Shown one piece after another: positions 7,583-39,646 of a stretch of DNA of 64,000 nt. The DNA is taken from contig NZ_AP022829.1 of the NCBI RefSeq assembly GCF_011405655.1, forward strand, positions 2,713,001-2,777,000, read 5' to 3'. The stretch is from Adlercreutzia hattorii (GTDB lineage: Bacteria; Actinomycetota; Coriobacteriia; Coriobacteriales; Eggerthellaceae). The notes below the pieces were generated by a model. The model saw nothing but the letters and a program-made list of their open reading frames with translations. It had not been told where the DNA came from and did no database searches. Position 1 is the first letter of the stretch, and each line of letters opens with the position of its first letter. The position numbers and the translations under genes were made by a program.

Positions 7583-8932
7583 CTAGAACTCCAGCTCCTG
7601 CAGGCGGTCGAACACCACGTCTTTGCGGGTGAGGAAGTCCCAGGGGTCGAAGATCTCGTCCAGCTTCTCCTGGCTAAGCAGGGCCATGGCCTCGTCGTCA
7701 GCTTCCAAGCGCTCGCGGTAGGTGGGGCCGTCCACGGCGTTCTGGATGTCCTCCCACACCTTCATGGCGTTGCGCTGCACGATAACGTAGGCGTCCTCGC
7801 GGGAGATGCCCGCGTCCACGAGCGCCAGCAGCACCTTGCTGGAGAAGATGAGGCCCTTCGTGCGCCACAGGTTGTGCTCCATCTTGGCCGGGTAGGTCTG
7901 CAGGCCGTCGAGCATCCACTGCATCTTCCCGAACATGTAATCGAGCGCCGTGAAACTGTCGGCCAGCACCACGCGCTCGGCGCCGGAGTGCGAGATGTCG
8001 CGCTCGAACCACAAGGCCACATTGTCGAAGGCCACCTGGGCGTTCGCCTTCACCACGCGGGCGAGGCCGCAAACGCGCTCGGCCGTGATGGGGTTGCGCT
8101 TGTGGGGCATGGCCGAGGAGCCCTTCTGCCCCTTGGTGAACGGCTCTTCCGCCTCGATGACGTCGGACTGTTGCAGCAGGCGCACCTGCATGGCGATGGA
8201 CTCAAGCGTGGAGGCGGTCACGGCCAGCGCGGCCATCACCTGGGCGTGGCGGTCGCGAGCAAGCACCTGGGTGGACAGCGGATCGGGAGTAAGGCCCAGC
8301 TTCTCGCAGACGTAGGTTTCCACAAAGGGATCGATGGAAGAGTAGGTGCCCACCGCGCCGGAAATAGCGCCGGTGGCGGCCACGGCGCGGGCCTCCTCCA
8401 TGCGCGTGAGGGCGCGCTTCAAGGCCCAGGCCCAGCTGCCGAACTTCATGCCGAAGGTCATGGGCTCGGCGTGAATGCCATGGGTGCGGCCGACGCACAG
8501 CGTGTTCTGGAACTCGAAGGCGCGGCGCTTGCAGGTTTCACCGAGGCGCTTGATGTCGTCGATGATGATGTCGCAAGCCTGGGTGACCTGGTAGGACAGG
8601 GCCGTGTCGCCCAGGTCGGAGGAGGTCATGCCGTAGTGCACCCAGCGGGAAGGCTTGTCTTCGCCCTCGGGGATGTCGGCGTCGATGTAGCCCGCCATAC
8701 AGGTGGTGAACGCGATGACGTCGTGGTTCGTCACTTTCTCGATCTCGTCGATCTCCTCAACGGTGAAGTCGGCGTGGTCGCGGATCCACTGGGCCTCCTC
8801 GCGCGTGATGCCCGCCTGGCCGAGCTCTGCCTGGGCCTCGCAGGCCAGAACCTCGATCTCCTTCCAAATGGCGAACTTGTTCTCGAGTTCCCAGATGCGA
8901 CCCATTTCCGGACGAGTATAGCGACCGATCAT
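7583..8932 (-). CDS. purB: Adenylosuccinate lyase
   Basis: A cytoplasmic enzyme of 449 aa of the fumarase/aspartase superfamily. It removes fumarate from SAICAR and from adenylosuccinate in purine synthesis. The superfamily signature GSSAMPHKRNPI is intact, RTHGIHAEP carries a conserved His, and the N-terminus MIGRYTRPEMGRIW is typical of short PurB enzymes. The length matches the family. The start at 8932 has AAGGAA upstream. It is a single gene with its own hairpin terminator and no other purine gene nearby. Confidence 0.97.
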   Translation of the reverse strand: MIGRYTRPEMGRIWELENKFAIWKEIEVLACEAQAELGQAGITREEAQWIRDHADFTVEEIDEIEKVTNHDVIAFTTCMAGYIDADIPEGEDKPSRWVHYGMTSSDLGDTALSYQVTQACDIIIDDIKRLGETCKRRAFEFQNTLCVGRTHGIHAEPMTFGMKFGSWAWALKRALTRMEEARAVAATGAISGAVGTYSSIDPFVETYVCEKLGLTPDPLSTQVLARDRHAQVMAALAVTASTLESIAMQVRLLQQSDVIEAEEPFTKGQKGSSAMPHKRNPITAERVCGLARVVKANAQVAFDNVALWFERDISHSGAERVVLADSFTALDYMFGKMQWMLDGLQTYPAKMEHNLWRTKGLIFSSKVLLALVDAGISREDAYVIVQRNAMKVWEDIQNAVDGPTYRERLEADDEAMALLSQEKLDEIFDPWDFLTRKDVVFDRLQELEF

Positions 8933-32122: not shown

Positions 32123-33757
32123 CTAAGCGATACCCAGGCAGTTTCTGGCGCTAATACGGCCGAATGCAAGGCATTCACCGCAGTTTCCGCCGCCGTTATA
32201 CATGTCTGACCAGATAGAGCCGAACTCGCCAGCGCTGTAAAGATTCGGGATGGGATTCTTGTCATGATCGAGGATCTGCCCGAACTCGTTACGCTCGGGA
32301 CCGCCATCGGTATTGAGGAACCACGGGCACTGGCGCGCCGCATAGAACGGCGGCTCAACAATAGGCGCAACCCCGTCATCCGCACGGTAGAACTGCGTAT
32401 CTCCGCCGTTTTGCAACATGGCATTCCACGTTGCAACCGTTCGTGTGAGCTCTTCAACCGGCACGTCGATCTGAGCCGCAAGGCCCTCGATTGTGTCGGC
32501 GCTGTAAGCGAAGCCCTCAGCCACCGGATCGTCGAAGGGGAAGTACGTGGTTGCCTTCTCGAAGCCCGCAGCATCGAAGATGCCCCAGGAAACGGCCGGC
32601 AGATGGCGCGTCATCCACTCGCCGCCGCTCTGGTAGTCGCCATGCCGATTGCCGTTGGTGAGCTTGAGATCCAACGCCACGCGCGTGTTGTTGCCGTAGG
32701 AAACCGCCGGGCACTCGGGAGTGAATCGCCGGCCGTTCGTTCCAACCAAGATACCGTAGCCGGAATCGATCATCTCCAGGTTCGAGGTGAAGCCCGTTCC
32801 ATCGAGTGACACGACGTGGGGCCAGAATCCGGCGATGCCGTGCATGTGCCACATTGATGCACCGACCTTCTCGCACATGACAATGCCGTCGCCGGTGTTG
32901 TGCACCGCCGCTGCGGGGTGACAGCCGTAGGCCTTGAAATAGTTTGCCATCATCTCGGGGTTGTTCTCGAAGCCCCCGCAGCACATGACGACGCCCTTGT
33001 TCGCCCTGACGTTCACTTCCTTGTTCCCGTCAAGATAGGTCACGCCCTCGATAGCGCACGAAACGGGATCCTGGATAAGCCGAACAGCCGGCGCCTTGGT
33101 CTTCCGAGTGATGACATCCGCCAGCTCGTCTGCCTTGGCGCTGAGGAACTTGATGACGTGAGTCAATCCGTCGGGATTATCAGGATTGAAGCGAATCCCA
33201 TGCACCGAAGCGTTGGGATCCAGCTCAGTGTATTCTGCATCATATTTGTAGACGCCCTGGCAGAACCCATCGGGGTCTTCGTAGGATACATAGAAGTCAT
33301 CTGGCGCCCCCAGGGAGCGGAGCCAATTCGCATGCTCCATCGCCTCGCGCACATAGGCCTCGCAAATCGCGTCCGAAACCGTCTCGTTCTCGCCGCGAAG
33401 GGCCTTGACGTACTCCAAGCAATCATCGTAGTTGTCGGTCGTCATTATCATGCCGCCCGAGAAAGCGCTATTGCCGCCGCCGAGCGGACTGTCGCTCTTT
33501 TCCAAGAGAAGGCATGTGGCGCCGTCGCCCTCAGTGCCCACCGTGACTGCGGTGGCCAGGCCGGCAAGACCGCTTCCGACGACGACCACATCATATTCCT
33601 CGTCAAAGTCTACGCCGGTTGATGCAAGATCCTGATCGCCCGAAGACGCATCCTTGGACGAGCAGCCTCCCAGCGCCACCGCGCCAACGGCAGTGCCGAG
33701 CGCCACGCCCGTTCCGACCAAGAAGCTGCGGCGCGTTGTCCCTGTTTCCATGTGCAT
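32123..33757 (-). CDS. Exported FAD-binding fumarate reductase-like flavoprotein
   Basis: A protein of 544 aa in the same FAD_binding_2 family as the gene at 9197 but clearly divergent from it. The N-terminus has a Tat motif TTRRSFLVG and a lipobox-like ALGGC (Cys32). The FAD loop VVGSGLAGLATA starts at residue 60 and LLLEKSDSPLGGGNSAFSGG follows. The C-terminal end (NLYSAGEFGSIWSDMYNGGG, then NCGECLAFGRISARN) is the flavin-capping region of the family. There is no haem or FMN domain. GGAGG lies 6 nt before the ATG at 33757. It is divergent from a membrane LuxR gene, with a palindrome in the shared promoter region, so it is very probably that regulator's target. The substrate is unknown. Confidence 0.92.
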   Translation of the reverse strand: MHMETGTTRRSFLVGTGVALGTAVGAVALGGCSSKDASSGDQDLASTGVDFDEEYDVVVVGSGLAGLATAVTVGTEGDGATCLLLEKSDSPLGGGNSAFSGGMIMTTDNYDDCLEYVKALRGENETVSDAICEAYVREAMEHANWLRSLGAPDDFYVSYEDPDGFCQGVYKYDAEYTELDPNASVHGIRFNPDNPDGLTHVIKFLSAKADELADVITRKTKAPAVRLIQDPVSCAIEGVTYLDGNKEVNVRANKGVVMCCGGFENNPEMMANYFKAYGCHPAAAVHNTGDGIVMCEKVGASMWHMHGIAGFWPHVVSLDGTGFTSNLEMIDSGYGILVGTNGRRFTPECPAVSYGNNTRVALDLKLTNGNRHGDYQSGGEWMTRHLPAVSWGIFDAAGFEKATTYFPFDDPVAEGFAYSADTIEGLAAQIDVPVEELTRTVATWNAMLQNGGDTQFYRADDGVAPIVEPPFYAARQCPWFLNTDGGPERNEFGQILDHDKNPIPNLYSAGEFGSIWSDMYNGGGNCGECLAFGRISARNCLGIA

Positions 33758-33887: not shown

Positions 33888-33904
33888 TACCCATTCATTG
33901 GGTA
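33888..33904. promoter_or_regulatory. Candidate LuxR operator palindrome
   Basis: TACCCA-TTCAT-TGGGTA, a perfect 6-5-6 inverted repeat in the 250-bp region between the divergent flavoprotein (start 33757) and LuxR (start 34008) genes. It lies 130 bp and 103 bp from the two start codons. A palindrome of the same geometry is at 38069-38085. Confidence 0.7.
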
Positions 33905-34007
33905 TTTTCTCTCCCCACGCCTTGGAACTGGCATTTCTCAGAAAGGCGGCCCTGCGCACATGCTAGGAACTCGCCGCATATTTCTCTAAAATAGGCAGAG
34001 CGAAGCT

Positions 34008-35516
34008 ATGGAGAACACGCCACCCAACATATCAGCGCACCGAGAATCAGAGCCTGCCTCTTCCACCGAGGCAACAAAGGCCCTGATGCTCGTCGTGCAC
34101 ATCATCGGCTTTGCCAGCATTTGGTCGATATTCCAACGATCGTTCTTCCTTCACCCTCTTGCATCGTTCGATCTGGTTCAAACAACGGACGAGCTCCTTT
34201 ATATATGCGTGGGCATGGCGATTTCGACTGCGGCAATCCTCCTGAAAGGCAAGAGCGTCCTTTCTCGCAATCGGCAGTGGCTCAAGGTGGCCCTCGCCGC
34301 AACAGCGATGGGGCTTATCGGAGGAGGCGTGTTGGTCTATTGCAACGAAGCCGCTCTTGCGCCCCCAGCTCTTTTTGCCGAGGCCTTTTGCATAGTGATG
34401 GGTGCTTCCAGCATTCTTTCCCTTTACCTGTGGTCGGTCGAGCTCATTCGCTATGCCTACCAGACAAGCTTCGGTTGGGCGGTTTTCTCCTTCTTCTCTG
34501 CCGTTTTCCTTGCACGGGCGGCGACAGCGCTTGTGGGAAACTCGCTGCTTGGCACTTTGCAGATTCTGTTCTCCTGCCCCACCTCGCTAGCGCTGTGGGC
34601 GCTTTCGGCTCATGCCAGCACCATTGAAGTCCTTGCCATCAGCAGCTTCGAGATAAGTCGAAGCGAGAGGCGCTTCCTCATCGCATCTATCGTTCTGATG
34701 CTGACGATGCCGCTCTCCCATATTCTGCTCATCGGCATACCCTCGTTCGCAGAGATGAGCTTTTCCAACGACACCCGCGAAGCGACTCTTCTCGTGATTT
34801 CCCTTTGCGCCGCCATTCTTGCCGCCGTGCGCTCCTGCAATGTTGTAAAAGCCATAACCGCCCAACATCTCTGGTTTGCGCTCTTCGGTGTGATAGGAGG
34901 AACGTGTCTCGGACTCCTCTTAAGCAACTCAAGCGACGCCTTTACCGCTTCTGCCGCCATCAACACCACCAGTACTCTGTGGTCACTCTCCTTCATGCTG
35001 CTCTACTTCTCGCTCCTGCTCTTTTGCTACGAGTCCTCAGTCAACCCTGCCCTTATTTTCGGCCTCATGTTCTTCGTGCCCCAGTGCATCGATATAGCCA
35101 CCAAGCATTTCGAATTTACCGCAGACGCGCTGCCCCTCATTCATCTGTCAACTCTCGACCAGGGAGTCCTTACCGCTCTTCTCGTTATTGTCACGTTGTT
35201 GGCCCTGTCTCTGCTTCTTGCTGCCTTTGGCTCGAGCAACGCACTCAAGACCCTCGTCAATTCCAACCCCTTCGTCGAAACCGCCGCTCTCAGCGAGGCT
35301 GACCCGCGGAAGGAACGCGCTTTAGATATCGCAGCACGGCATGGTCTCACTTCTAGGGAGCAGGACATCCTCCTTCTTCTTTCGCAGGGGCACAGTGCAG
35401 CCCGCATAGGAGAGCTTCTTTACATTTCTGCGGCAACCGTCCAAACCCACACTAAGCATATCTACGCGAAACTTGGCGTTCATTCTCGCCAGGAGATAAT
35501 TGATCTTTTTGCCTGA
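34008..35516 (+). CDS. LuxR-family regulator with polytopic membrane sensor domain
   Basis: A regulator of 502 aa. About twelve hydrophobic segments fill residues 25-415, and the C-terminus is a LuxR helix-turn-helix (LTSREQDILLLLSQGHSAAR, then SAATVQTHTKHIYAKLGVHS). It matches the architecture at 10860 and 38186 but is not close in the membrane part, which probably reads a specific small molecule. The ribosome site before 34008 is weak (AGCGAAG). It is transcribed away from the exported flavoprotein gene, with the candidate operator between them. Confidence 0.92.
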   Translation: MENTPPNISAHRESEPASSTEATKALMLVVHIIGFASIWSIFQRSFFLHPLASFDLVQTTDELLYICVGMAISTAAILLKGKSVLSRNRQWLKVALAATAMGLIGGGVLVYCNEAALAPPALFAEAFCIVMGASSILSLYLWSVELIRYAYQTSFGWAVFSFFSAVFLARAATALVGNSLLGTLQILFSCPTSLALWALSAHASTIEVLAISSFEISRSERRFLIASIVLMLTMPLSHILLIGIPSFAEMSFSNDTREATLLVISLCAAILAAVRSCNVVKAITAQHLWFALFGVIGGTCLGLLLSNSSDAFTASAAINTTSTLWSLSFMLLYFSLLLFCYESSVNPALIFGLMFFVPQCIDIATKHFEFTADALPLIHLSTLDQGVLTALLVIVTLLALSLLLAAFGSSNALKTLVNSNPFVETAALSEADPRKERALDIAARHGLTSREQDILLLLSQGHSAARIGELLYISAATVQTHTKHIYAKLGVHSRQEIIDLFA

Positions 35517-35658
35517 TCATCGCGACTCCTTTAGACATGGCATCGAGCCCTACCAACGCCATTGTCCTTCGCAAATGAGCTAGCCAGCCAGAAATCACCG
35601 CATCGCAATTCGCGGAGCAACTGCTGCGCCAGGGAATGCCGAGCCCCCGACGTGAATC

Positions 35659-35700
35659 GCGCCCCGAATCTTGGACAAGATAGACCAAGATTCGGGGCGC
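35659..35700. terminator. Perfect 16-bp hairpin between convergent genes
   Basis: GCGCCCCGAATCTTGG / CCAAGATTCGGGGCGC with a 10-nt loop. It has no T-tract on either side, so it may be a rho-assisted or bidirectional terminator. It lies between the LuxR stop (35516) and the convergent stop at 35793; the remainder of that gap is featureless. Confidence 0.6.
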
Positions 35701-35792
35701 AAGGGAGAGGCTTTCTAAATCGCGGGTGCGACCTTGCTGGGAGGGGAGGCGCGAGGCCGCACCCACAGAAGACGAGCTTCGCCTTCCTTGCT

Positions 35793-36290
35793 TTAGGCGG
35801 CGGCCATGGTCATAAGCGAGGCCAAGGACACGCCCGACACCTCGGCATTGGCGATGGCGCCGCCGCCGGGGGCGTTCGAGGCGCAGGAGCAGCCGAGCAC
35901 ATAGGAATCGGCGCCCTCCTCCTCGGCCATCTCGGCCACTGTGGCCTCCATGGTCGGCAAACCCGCGACCGACACTTTGATGGCCTGGGCCGTGTACACG
36001 CCGTAGCCGTCGGCTGTGGTCTGGCACAAAGTAGCTGCCGCTTTGGCGAACACCGAGGCGATAGTCTCGTTGGAAGTCACCACGCCTTGGTCGTAGCTGA
36101 ACTGGCCTTCGACGCGCTGAACGCCAGTCGCCTCGGCGGCAGCACTCGCTTCCGTCGCCTGCTGGGTCGCCGCCGCGGGCGACGCATCGGCCGTGATGTC
36201 CATGACGGCCGGGGCCGCCGCCAGCGCCGCAGAGCCCAGCAGGATCAAGCTGCTCGCCGCCGCGCCAATAGCCTTCGCTGAAGTAGTCAC
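35793..36290 (-). CDS. Small secreted protein paired with the sulfite-oxidase-like enzyme
   Basis: A predicted secreted protein of 165 aa: signal peptide about 1-30 (Ala-rich, AALAAAP), an Ala/Thr-rich stretch to about 55, then a compact acidic domain with VEGQFSYDQGVV, TLCQTTADGYGVYTAQAIKV and DSYVLGCSCAS. I recognise no family. The paired cysteines of GCSCAS and the conserved spacing to the upstream molybdo-enzyme (14 bp between genes) suggest a periplasm-side subunit or chaperone of that enzyme. The start is GTG at 36290 with AAGGAG 6 nt upstream. It is the last gene of the operon. Confidence 0.75.
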   Translation of the reverse strand: MTTSAKAIGAAASSLILLGSAALAAAPAVMDITADASPAAATQQATEASAAAEATGVQRVEGQFSYDQGVVTSNETIASVFAKAAATLCQTTADGYGVYTAQAIKVSVAGLPTMEATVAEMAEEEGADSYVLGCSCASNAPGGGAIANAEVSGVSLASLMTMAAA

Positions 36291-36304
36291 GATGCGCTCC
36301 TTTC

Positions 36305-37939
36305 CTACTCGCTCACTTGGATGATGATGCTGGCGTCCTTGCCCCGCTCAACGCCGTTCTTGCTGACGGCCTTCGCCTTGGCGATGTAGGTGCCGGCCTT
36401 CTCGGGCGTCCACGTCATGGTGAAGTGGGTCCACTGATAGGGATCGAAGCTGTCCGGAGAGTCGACTTCAGTCCAGTTCTGGCCGTAATCCAGGGAGAAG
36501 AGGATTTTGTCCACTTCGTAGTTGCAGGCATCGCCGAAGGTCCAACCCCAGGAAGCGCCCTCCAGGGTCACGGGCTCGCCCACCTTGGCCTGCACGCCGT
36601 CGTTGTCGAACCAGGAGGTGTTCATGTTGATGAGAGCGCCGGCCTCGATGGAGGGCACGGCGATGTCGCTGTACACCGGCGGGTTGTCGGTCTTGCTGAA
36701 CTTGATGCCCACCAGGTTCTTCACCGTGGCCGTGCCACCGGTGCCGGGAACGAAGATCTCCACCGGGCCGCCCTGGGCGATGTTGAGGTCATGACCGTAG
36801 CGCTCGAGCACGATCACAGCATCGTTGTCGATGTAAGACTGCAGGTCGGTGGCACCATCGGGGTAGATGGCCGTCCACCCATCAACGGCGACAGGCGTAA
36901 CGGTGTTCGTACCCGCCTCGACGCCGCCTACGGCCTCGATGAAGTCGGACAGCTTCACGCCCTTCATGGGCATGTTGTCGAACATGGCAGTGTTGTAGCC
37001 GGCCACGTAGCAGTACTGGGCCGCCGTGAACTCCGTCTGGGGCATGGCCTTCAGGTCGTCCAGCGTGTACTCGCCGGGCTTGCCGACGCCTTCAACGGTA
37101 AAGCGGTAGCTGTCGTCGTTCACGGACTTCTCGATCTGGTCATAGGCATCCTCACCTTCGATGCGCTCGAAGTTCAGGATGTTGAACTCGTCTTCCTCGG
37201 CACTCGTCGCCTGATCCACCTGCACGTCGAGCTTGGGGTCGGCCTCGCGAACAACCCCGCTAAAGGTACCCTCGTCCCAACCGTGGCGCTCGAGCCAATG
37301 GATATCGGTCTCATCTTCGTTGGGATAGCCGCCGAAGCGCATGTCGTACTTGACGTCCTCGAACAGCTTCATGATGATATTGCCGCCCTCGTCAGTGTCG
37401 GTCACGTGACAGCTCCAGCAGTTGCCGTTGGCATTCACAAACTCGGGGCTGCTGTAGTGGCGCACGTGCAGGTTCTCAGACATGATGTTGCCCGCCGTGC
37501 CCATTTTCTGGTAGTGGCACACCACACAGTCGCCGTTGTAGGAGCCCTTCTTCATACCCACCTGGTTGGTGATGTGCACGAAGGAACCGTTGTTTTTGTC
37601 CAGCGTGAACAGATCGTCGTGACACGCGGCGCATCCGCGGTTGCCCGCGTTTTGGAACTCCGCATTGCGCTGAATGTCCGGGAACATGCCCGTGGACACG
37701 TCCGTGAAGTCCGCTGCCGTCGAGAACGAACCGGTAGTCGAGGCATCGGCGTCCCCGCCGTCCGACTCGCCCGTCTCGGCCATGGCCGCATTCGTGTCCG
37801 TTGGCTGGGGCGCCGTGGACGGCGCGCAGGCCGCCAGACAGGCCGCCAGAGCGAGCAGGCATACCGCGGCGCCGAGCGCGAACTTGCGCCGCGAGTGCGC
37901 ACGTCTGCCCTCGCCTCTCTTACTCGTAGGGAACCTCAT
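36305..37939 (-). CDS. Triheme sulfite-oxidase-like molybdopterin lipoprotein
   Basis: A protein of 544 aa. The N-terminus has SRRKF and a lipobox LAAC (Cys38). Three c-type haem motifs follow: CAACH (103-107), CVVCH (138-142) and CWSCH (174-178). Next comes an oxidoreductase molybdopterin-binding domain of the sulfite oxidase/YedY type (about 250-400), with a Cys in AAQYCYVAGYN in the position expected for the Mo ligand and MPMKGVKLSDFIEAVGG, then a C-terminal Ig-like Mo-co dimerisation domain (about 430-540). The haem module fused in front gives it its own electron path to menaquinol carriers. The start at 37939 has GGAGG upstream. It is divergent from a membrane LuxR gene. Substrate unknown. 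Confidence 0.88.
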   Translation of the reverse strand: MRFPTSKRGEGRRAHSRRKFALGAAVCLLALAACLAACAPSTAPQPTDTNAAMAETGESDGGDADASTTGSFSTAADFTDVSTGMFPDIQRNAEFQNAGNRGCAACHDDLFTLDKNNGSFVHITNQVGMKKGSYNGDCVVCHYQKMGTAGNIMSENLHVRHYSSPEFVNANGNCWSCHVTDTDEGGNIIMKLFEDVKYDMRFGGYPNEDETDIHWLERHGWDEGTFSGVVREADPKLDVQVDQATSAEEDEFNILNFERIEGEDAYDQIEKSVNDDSYRFTVEGVGKPGEYTLDDLKAMPQTEFTAAQYCYVAGYNTAMFDNMPMKGVKLSDFIEAVGGVEAGTNTVTPVAVDGWTAIYPDGATDLQSYIDNDAVIVLERYGHDLNIAQGGPVEIFVPGTGGTATVKNLVGIKFSKTDNPPVYSDIAVPSIEAGALINMNTSWFDNDGVQAKVGEPVTLEGASWGWTFGDACNYEVDKILFSLDYGQNWTEVDSPDSFDPYQWTHFTMTWTPEKAGTYIAKAKAVSKNGVERGKDASIIIQVSE

Positions 37940-38068
37940 GAGTCCTCCTCTCCTCTTTCTGCGGAAGGCCCTTTGCCGTTCCGCTCCTTCGCGGTTCACT
38001 ATCCCCGAGAAGCCAGTTTTCGGCGTCATCATCCATGCAGCAAAGTACCGACGACCCCAACGACAACG

Positions 38069-38085
38069 TACTCAAATGTTGAGTA
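38069..38085. promoter_or_regulatory. Candidate LuxR operator palindrome
   Basis: TACTCA-AATGT-TGAGTA, a perfect 6-5-6 inverted repeat between the divergent molybdo-enzyme (start 37939) and LuxR (start 38186) genes, 129 bp and 100 bp from them. It shares the form TAC[C/T]CA-N5-TG[A/G]GTA and a following TATTT with the site at 33888-33904. Confidence 0.7.
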
Positions 38086-38185: not shown

Positions 38186-39646
38186 ATGGAGAACGAGAAG
38201 ACAGGGGGCGTCCGCGCGGCCGAGCATCGCCCGCTCTGCTTGTGCATCTTGGCTATTGGTGCGCTGTTCGCTTGGTGGAACCTCTACCACGACGACGGAT
38301 TTCTTTTCCTGTCGAACTATCTCAACCAAGTTGAGAGCTGCTTGGCTTGCTACGGCGGCGCCCTCGGCGCCTTCGCCCTCATCGTCGGAGCCCGGGCGAG
38401 CTGGCGACGGCGCGAGCGTCCCTGGCTCATCGCCCTCGCCATTGCCCAAGCGCTCACTGGTACGTGGCTCTTCATCGCCGTTATGGCCGACTGGCCCGCT
38501 GGCGTCATAGGCGGCCAGCTTTTCATCGGCACCGCCTTCTTCTCGCAGCTGTTCTTCCTCATGCGCTGGCTTTGCACACGTCCCGTCCCCCATATCGCCG
38601 TAGCCATTGCGGTAGCTATAGCGACTTACGGCGTTCTGGAAGCGGCCGCATGGGCTGTGATGGCCCTATTCCCCCTCATGCCTCTGCGCATTGCCGTGCG
38701 CTTCCTCCTTCTGGCATTGTGCATCGTCTGCAGCTGGCGAGTTCTTTGGAAACGCCCCGTTTCGGCCCAAAATGGCCCCGAAGCCTCTCCCTTTGCCTCT
38801 GCCGAGACCGATAAGAGCGCCCCTAGGCGCCTTCCGCCCCAACTCCTCTTACACTGTGCAGCTTACTGGCTCATTTTCGGCATGACCCATGCCATGGCGA
38901 GTGGCATTATTCCCTTGGGCCACGACAAGCTCCTCCCCTGCTATATCGGATCCGTCGTCGCGGGTGGCATCTTCTGCGTTGCCTTTGCCCGAGATGACCA
39001 CGCAGCCAAGCTCTGGCCCCGCGTGCGCACAACGATCTTCCCCCTCACGATGCTGAGCTTCTTGCTTCTCTCGCTCGCCAATAGCGGGCTCACATTCATA
39101 TCCATCGGATTCGCTCAATGCGCCATGGATGCTTACCTCGCTTTTTACCTGCTCGCCACCATCGTGGTCATGCGGAAGGTGCATTGCAGCTATTTGCACG
39201 CGGCTGCCACAGCCACGCTCATCGCCGTGCCCTTCATCGTCATCGGCGTCATTATCGGAGACGTTCTGAAAGTAAGCGTGCCGCTGAACACCGAGTCCTA
39301 CGGCACGCTATCCATTCTCGCGTTTCTGCTGCTCGTTGCCGGCACATTCTGGGTTGGGGACGATCGCCGGGTCGAACTCGTGTGGGGTCTCGAGAAGAAG
39401 CTGACGCCCAAGCGCTTCGAGGACAAGGCCACCACCGAGCGCTGCGCGAAAGCCGTCGAGAAGTTCGGCCTCACCAAACGCGAGGGTGAGATTCTGTTGT
39501 TCGTCGCCCAAGGGCAGAACGCGGCGGCCATCGCCGAGTCCGAAGTGATCTCCCTTAACACCGCGCGTACTCACATCTCCCGAATCCATCGCAAGATGAA
39601 CGTGCACAATCAGCAAGAGCTGCTGAGGCGGCTCAAGGAGCCGTAA
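38186..39646 (+). CDS. LuxR-family regulator with polytopic membrane sensor domain
   Basis: A regulator of 486 aa with about twelve hydrophobic segments (residues 15-385) and a C-terminal LuxR helix-turn-helix (LTKREGEILLFVAQGQNAAA, then LNTARTHISRIHRKMNVHN). The HTH is the most divergent of the three such regulators in the window (HISRIHRKM in place of HxxHIYxKL). GGAGGAAG precedes the ATG. It is transcribed away from the triheme molybdo-enzyme operon, which it probably controls through the palindrome at 38069-38085. Confidence 0.92.
   Translation: MENEKTGGVRAAEHRPLCLCILAIGALFAWWNLYHDDGFLFLSNYLNQVESCLACYGGALGAFALIVGARASWRRRERPWLIALAIAQALTGTWLFIAVMADWPAGVIGGQLFIGTAFFSQLFFLMRWLCTRPVPHIAVAIAVAIATYGVLEAAAWAVMALFPLMPLRIAVRFLLLALCIVCSWRVLWKRPVSAQNGPEASPFASAETDKSAPRRLPPQLLLHCAAYWLIFGMTHAMASGIIPLGHDKLLPCYIGSVVAGGIFCVAFARDDHAAKLWPRVRTTIFPLTMLSFLLLSLANSGLTFISIGFAQCAMDAYLAFYLLATIVVMRKVHCSYLHAAATATLIAVPFIVIGVIIGDVLKVSVPLNTESYGTLSILAFLLLVAGTFWVGDDRRVELVWGLEKKLTPKRFEDKATTERCAKAVEKFGLTKREGEILLFVAQGQNAAAIAESEVISLNTARTHISRIHRKMNVHNQQELLRRLKEP

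Follow-up and report, generated by a model that had tools for sequence, protein, structure and literature searches.

Two divergent promoter regions of one genome, each between a membrane LuxR regulator gene and an oxidoreductase gene, carry palindromes of the same form, which raises the question of what these palindromes are and which protein would bind them. The regions lie in a stretch of 64 000 nucleotides from Adlercreutzia hattorii, a member of the Eggerthellaceae (assembly GCF_011405655.1, contig NZ_AP022829.1, positions 2,713,001 to 2,777,000); this whole stretch is hereafter called the window. Judging by comparison of sequences, we consider it likely that the palindromes are dimer operators at which the adjacent membrane-LuxR proteins, as one-component activators, would bind and drive the divergent oxidoreductases.

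A direct read of the window gave TACCCATTCATTGGGTA at positions 33888–33904 and TACTCAAATGTTGAGTA at 38069–38085, confirming the letters and coordinates in the initial annotation of this DNA. All six arm pairs match in both sites, which are of the TAC type and differ at base 4, where both arms have C in site 1 and T in site 2. They thus have the 6-5-6 form as defined here, that is, a 17-bp palindrome located upstream of a membrane LuxR gene, with a spacer of 5, arms beginning with TCA, TAC or TCC and at least 5 of 6 pairs. The common form TAC[C/T]CA-N5-TG[A/G]GTA with a trailing TATTT, as initially described, is present at both sites, since the next letters are TTTTC after site 1 and TTTCC after site 2. 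The distances to the four start codons were likewise reproduced, with gaps of 103 bp (ATG at 34008) and 100 bp (ATG at 38186) to the LuxR genes and of 130 bp (33757) and 129 bp (37939) to the oxidoreductase genes, both on the minus strand. The second oxidoreductase reading frame has an extra in-frame ATG upstream at 38032, with a gap of 36 bp; AGGAGG precedes the ATG at 37939.

The 2,908,404-bp genome contains exactly two copies of TACYCA-N5-TGRGTA, both in the window, and none of the reversed control. The wider form TACNCA-N5-TGNGTA added no exact copy. With one mismatch allowed it matched 17 times in the genome, a figure that includes the two exact copies, and the control matched 19 times. 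Because the pattern was picked after the sites had been seen, the test on other regulators is the stronger one.

Table 1. Candidate operators, flanking genes in the window and exact TACCCA sites ahead of LuxR genes in two other loci
Feature	Position	Strand	Remarks
Operator candidate 1, TACCCA-ttcat-TGGGTA	33888..33904	.	6-5-6 palindrome; cluster of regulator 1 counted with a spacer-5 site
Operator candidate 2, TACTCA-aatgt-TGAGTA	38069..38085	.	6-5-6 palindrome; cluster of regulator 2 counted likewise
Membrane LuxR regulator 1, 502 aa	34008..35516	+	GerE helix-turn-helix at residues 447-500; recognition helix S-A-A-T-V-Q-T-H
Membrane LuxR regulator 2, 486 aa	38186..39646	+	GerE helix-turn-helix at residues 429-481; recognition helix S-L-N-T-A-R-T-H; model of the membrane part shows a major facilitator superfamily (MFS) fold
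FAD_binding_2 flavoprotein, divergent	32123..33757	-	twin-arginine-like start (TTRRSFL); presumed target of regulator 1, from position
Oxidored_molyb (sulfite-oxidase-like) + Cytochrome_C7 protein, divergent	36305..37939	-	presumed target of regulator 2, from position
Alanine-rich open reading frame, 165 aa	35793..36290	-	directly downstream of 36305-37939
TACCCA site in locus L222 (= L111)	8559-8575 of the locus		86 bp before probable GTG of a membrane LuxR gene, other genus; helix SLHTVHAH
TACCCA site in locus L123	1304-1320 of the locus		55 bp before a 349-aa LuxR reading frame with 6 hydrophobic segments, other genus; helix AESTVYTH

A class of 6-5-6 palindromes upstream of membrane LuxR genes

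Regulators with a polytopic N-terminus were collected in a first set of 126 non-identical sequences from the A. hattorii genome, its genus and loci found in searches of other genomes (some from other genera). Upstream of these genes, 12 distinct perfect palindromes with arms beginning T[AC] were found at spacer 5, compared with 0–2 at twelve other spacers, and 100 shuffles gave a mean of 0.52 and a maximum of 2. Perfect examples beyond the window pair had the arms TCAACA, TCACAC, TCCTCA, TCACCT, TCACTA and TCATCA, with the inverted repeat five bases on. Under a relaxed rule (at least 5 of 6 pairs, arms starting with TCA, TAC or TCC), which was fixed before 16 fresh clusters were tested, 8 of the 16 had a spacer-5 site versus 0–1 for any one of 15 other spacer lengths (Poisson P = 2e-7). 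With all 217 regulators grouped in 125 clusters, a site at spacer 5 was found in 31 clusters versus 2–9 at 15 other spacers. Rows removed before these counts comprised 8 duplicates, 13 proteins with under 7 hydrophobic segments, one without a start and one without upstream sequence; of nine loci from a scan of named genomes, five from Coriobacteriia were used and four from other phyla dropped. For regulator 1 the scripts used a later start (34086), which shifts the listed position to -190 and leaves the site unchanged.

The enrichment extended to a comparison with other genes: taking the first member of each cluster, 27 of 125 regulators had a site, against 23 of 481 control genes, which were the remaining genes in the window and in loci L222 to L281 (P = 4.5e-8). 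GerE matches numbered 68 in the A. hattorii genome, 52 of them in proteins with at least 7 hydrophobic segments (50 with at least 8), and 10 of these 52 membrane-LuxR regulators had a site upstream. By anchor, spacer 5 yielded 21 clusters with TCA, 6 with TAC and 5 with TCC, compared with means over twelve other spacers of 2.7, 0.75 and 1.8, respectively. These counts support, as candidate sites predicted from sequence, a common 6-5-6 operator architecture for membrane-LuxR genes in Eggerthellaceae. The initial proposal of a common operator for membrane LuxR regulators was therefore borne out as to spacing, whereas the TAC[C/T]CA arm turned out to be a minority type. The near-equal distances to the start codons are not a family-wide rule either, as site centres spread from about -40 to -300, with 25 of 49 within -140 to -80.

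A further genome (G052; 3,632,260 bp) was approached from the enzyme side, with 30 molybdenum-enzyme loci examined of 32 matches. Nine of these 30 had a divergent open reading frame with at least 6 hydrophobic segments, its helix-turn-helix falling beyond the end of the locus; five of the nine had a spacer-5 site, versus 0–1 at 13 other spacers, and such a site was present in 2 of the remaining 21. One locus of this genome (L301) contains a perfect TCATCA-ataat-TGATGA at 554–570, near the start of a membrane reading frame cut by the locus end; the palindrome also lies ahead of a reading frame for a putative TorD-type chaperone (labelled by reading) and of the molybdenum enzyme. Elsewhere, three loci with related regulators (L076, L138 and L139) have a second, imperfect copy, TCAGCA-N5-TGTTGA, which precedes the TCAACA palindrome by 32 bp, a spacing that would fit a pair of dimers separated by about three turns.

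Half-site bases and the recognition helix

The outer half-site positions are common to the sites (T at the first, C or A at the second, A or C at the third), and the inner bases differ between regulators. Covariation with the recognition helix was assessed on the 21 clusters with a TCA anchor, each represented by a single site, with helix residue 2 defined by the frame S-x-2-T. Base 4 was C in 8 of 9 clusters with Asn at helix position 2 and in none of the 12 with other residues (Fisher 4.4e-5), this pair being the one starred among the 65 combinations of 13 helix positions with 5 bases that were tried, with 400 permutations for each; Gly at the same position went with T at base 4 in 6 of 7. 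The association of Asn with C persisted when the helix-turn-helix domains were thinned to below 55% identity (5/5 versus 0/8) and when TAC and TCC sites were added (9/11 versus 4/21, P = 0.0016).

Searches with one query domain of each type were in line with this correspondence. Among the 30 loci obtained with a Gly-type query, 7 of which lacked a readable helix-turn-helix, 10 had a TCA site; nine of these had Gly, all with TCAT, and the remaining one (L330) had Asn and TCAC. The Asn-type query gave 30 loci, 10 with a TCA site and all of these TCAC, 8 of the 10 coming from domains more than 90% identical to the query. The follow-up loci are partly dependent on the first table: L312, L314 and L344 repeat its regulators, and L313, L315 and L319 closely resemble two of these. 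Many loci end too near the start codon to include a site, the known sites of L342 and L343 falling outside. Regulators sharing the helix SENTVRTHAKHIY in four genera (g1, g5, g21 and g37) retained TCACAC...(G/A)TGTGA together with the flank ttta, and their spacers changed (gacaa, ggcgc, tcgtc, ccggc, cgtgc and ccgtc).

The covarying residue can tentatively be placed on a solved relative. DosR (DevR) binds a palindromic dimer site, the consensus and length of which differ from those of the 6-5-6 sites. Its helix-turn-helix belongs to the same superfamily as those of the window regulators (1zlk, 3c3w), although DosR, unlike them, is a cytoplasmic response regulator. Helix position 2 corresponds to position 179 of the 3c3w chain (by alignment offset and in chain numbering, which may differ from protein numbering). 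Passages of PMC4082495 give Lys179, Lys182 and Asn183 as the base contacts of DosR, and the equivalent of the covarying residue is probably among them.

Taken together, the inner half-site bases appear to vary with the regulator, and specificity appears partly decodable. The initial suggestion that half-site differences give specificity was thus supported for TCA-type sites, where base 4 covaries with helix residue 2, a correspondence from which the TAC-type site of regulator 2 departs. Base 4, at which the window sites differ, is the covarying position of the TCA-type sites; the code covers that type, and the window pair is of the TAC type. For the TACCCA regulators (regulator 1 and those of L222 and L123), helix position 5 is occupied by Gln, His and Tyr, whereas Arg or Lys is found there in 21 of 32 clusters; a correspondence between TACCCA and the lack of Arg or Lys at this position is a lead.

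A broader model, which we think could equally turn out right or wrong, is that Eggerthellaceae would possess dozens of paralogous activators per genome with an MFS fold and a NarL-type helix-turn-helix, each with a private 17-bp operator and its own oxidoreductase. The anchor would be shared and the inner bases set by the helix, Asn reading C and Gly reading T at base 4, and regulator-promoter pairs and inducing substrates would be assignable from sequence. With an operator that is shared and a half-site that varies and can be decoded in part, DNA choice by these regulators becomes directly testable. The operators also offer a way of pairing orphan regulators with target genes and could help to predict which regulator controls which enzyme, and naturally differing operators form a set for inducible promoters.

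Weighing the operator reading and its alternatives

Several results bear on the reading of the palindromes as operators, most of them against it. The exact pattern TACYCA-N5-TGRGTA was rejected as a family operator: a scan of 138 genomes of the family gave 19 sites against 26 for the reversed control, so that TAC[C/T]CA alone shows no enrichment across Eggerthellaceae. Fifteen of the 19 were fully symmetric (P = 0.0096 versus one half). Outside the A. hattorii genome, 14 of 17 exact sites overlap an open reading frame of at least 80 amino acids other than a regulator, although 2 of 17 directly precede membrane-LuxR genes, in L222, where a reading frame with a twin-arginine-like start lies on the other side of the site, and in L123, whose regulator, with 6 hydrophobic segments, was excluded by the 7-segment cut-off. 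A further intergenic exact site is found in L120, a locus with no LuxR. The two window sites themselves cannot be footprinted, because regulator 1 had no match among 136 other genomes and the matches of regulator 2 were only 22–35% identical. The strict form failed a first validation, in which 20 new clusters gave zero perfect T[AC] palindromes (0.25 in shuffles), and the relaxed 5-of-6 rule was partly fitted on these data; even under that rule just 25% of clusters have a site, three quarters being without a detectable one. Control genes show a slight spacer-5 excess as well (23 versus 4–18 at other spacers), and other anchors exceed their means (AGA 7 versus 1.3, GCC 14 versus 8.4 and TTT 10 versus 4.8). 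Unanchored palindromes in the A. hattorii genome numbered 28 at spacer 5 versus 21 in coding sequence and 12 in shuffles, with spacers 3, 6 and 7 raised too, and best-palindrome scores there did not set spacer 5 apart. Regulator 2 combines Asn at helix position 2 with T at base 4 of its site, and a Mantel test of whole helices against half-sites was weak (r = 0.13, P = 0.046). Finally, neither intergenic region yielded a sigma-70-like promoter, none being placed with confidence.

That two chance palindromes were picked for looking alike would fit the post hoc choice of the pattern and its family count below the control. We regard this as hardly credible, as both copies in the genome sit in the promoters of the two neighbouring regulators, two of the 17 copies outside precede membrane-LuxR genes and the general form passed an independent test. 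The palindromes might instead form RNA hairpins, that is, intrinsic terminators or attenuators in the LuxR leader with a 6-bp stem, a 5-nt loop and a T-run. Site 1 does score weakly as terminator-like, the folding energies are -7.8 kcal/mol for site 1 and -5.2 kcal/mol for site 2, and T is frequent after the palindrome centre (position 9 in 19/32, position 11 in 16/32). Nevertheless, site 2 has no terminator score, the enrichment with these anchors is confined to the 5-base spacing and hence to one loop length, and the outer pairs are TCA/TGA in place of G+C-rich stems. Mismatched arm pairs were G-T in 6, A-C in 5 and others in 3 cases, and therefore reveal no preference for wobble pairs. A hairpin moreover offers no reason for covariation with a residue of the helix-turn-helix, and it is hard to see what a terminator would do between divergent promoters, which makes this explanation very unlikely.

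Binding by another, common regulator, such as a NarL-like response regulator, in place of the adjacent membrane LuxR proteins is also improbable. Paired NarL and NarP heptamers have a 16-bp 7-2-7 arrangement, unlike the 17-bp 6-5-6 sites of the window, and the 16-bp geometry (TAC at spacer 4) was found in 2 clusters versus 6 at spacer 5. The half-sites do resemble the heptamer TACYYMT given in passages of PMC4886647, which the site 1 arm TACCCAT fits exactly and the other arms (TACCCAA, TACTCAA and TACTCAA) in 6 of 7 positions; the helix-turn-helix domains of the window regulators align with NarL chains in the PDB (1je8), and the A. hattorii genome has GerE proteins without hydrophobic segments that could supply such a factor. 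However, one factor would be expected to have one site sequence, whereas the arms differ by locus and with the helix of the neighbouring regulator. In contrast to NarL and NarP, a receiver domain is not among the Pfam matches of the window regulators, and most sites of their relatives begin with TCA, not TAC.

Regulators, neighbouring genes and a proposed mechanism

The main text of Dong et al. (2022; PMC9734109) describes LuxR regulators of Coriobacteriia with 10-12 transmembrane segments, namely DadR, CadR and HcdR of Eggerthella lenta, which by genetics activate a neighbouring enzyme gene in a substrate-dependent manner, and links such regulators to enzymes with which gut Actinobacteria metabolise drugs and polyphenols. 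Like these, the window regulators combine a polytopic N-terminus (11 hydrophobic segments in regulator 1 and 12 in regulator 2 by a simple hydropathy count, in keeping with the 10-12 range) with a C-terminal LuxR helix-turn-helix (PF00196, E 1.4e-15 and 2e-12), and both adjoin a flavin or molybdenum oxidoreductase that is divergently transcribed. Between the two, BLASTP aligned only the helix-turn-helix significantly (41% over 69 residues). The passages of PMC9734109 covered give no operator for DadR, CadR or HcdR; its main text does not mention a palindrome, inverted repeat or consensus, and leaves MFS, major facilitator, transporter and AlphaFold unmentioned. An operator for this family was not found described in the titles, openings of abstracts and main-text passages covered, which included PMC9734109, PMC11887054 and PMC12771579. 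What the present analysis adds to that main text is the geometry of the operator, the types of half-site and the MFS-like fold.

An AlphaFold2 model of regulator 2 (mean predicted local distance difference test score 81.5) placed residues 6-406 on the MFS transporter fold (Foldseek best E 4e-5; VIA-align Z as high as 27.2 across 362 residues). This model, the NarL-type helix-turn-helix and the published substrate-dependent activation in the E. lenta relatives together suggest a transporter-fold sensor. The N-terminal MFS-like domain would sense a substrate in the membrane, the C-terminal NarL-type domain would bind, as a dimer, the 17-bp palindrome between the two divergent genes, and the bound regulator, with substrate present, would switch on the divergent oxidoreductase. 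The C versus T at base 4 (TACCCA versus TACTCA) may insulate the two neighbours from each other. For this locus, it is thus binding, activation, ligand and responding promoter that we infer. On the enzyme side, TANNNT occurred in 6–8 of 32 cases in windows starting 22–31 bp from the palindrome centre and in 0–6 in the other windows there; this does not decide the responding promoter, because the count on the LuxR side reaches 8 too.

The two presumed targets had both been called reductases in the initial annotation, a label that is not supported for the second, which has a sulfite-oxidase-like molybdenum domain and a cytochrome c7 domain. NCBIfam sulfite-dehydrogenase models match this second protein under the cut-off, and the flavoprotein is flavocytochrome-c-like, with an NCBIfam score likewise under the cut-off. 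The alanine-rich reading frame downstream of the molybdenum/cytochrome protein has no match in Pfam or NCBIfam and is probably carried on one transcript with it.

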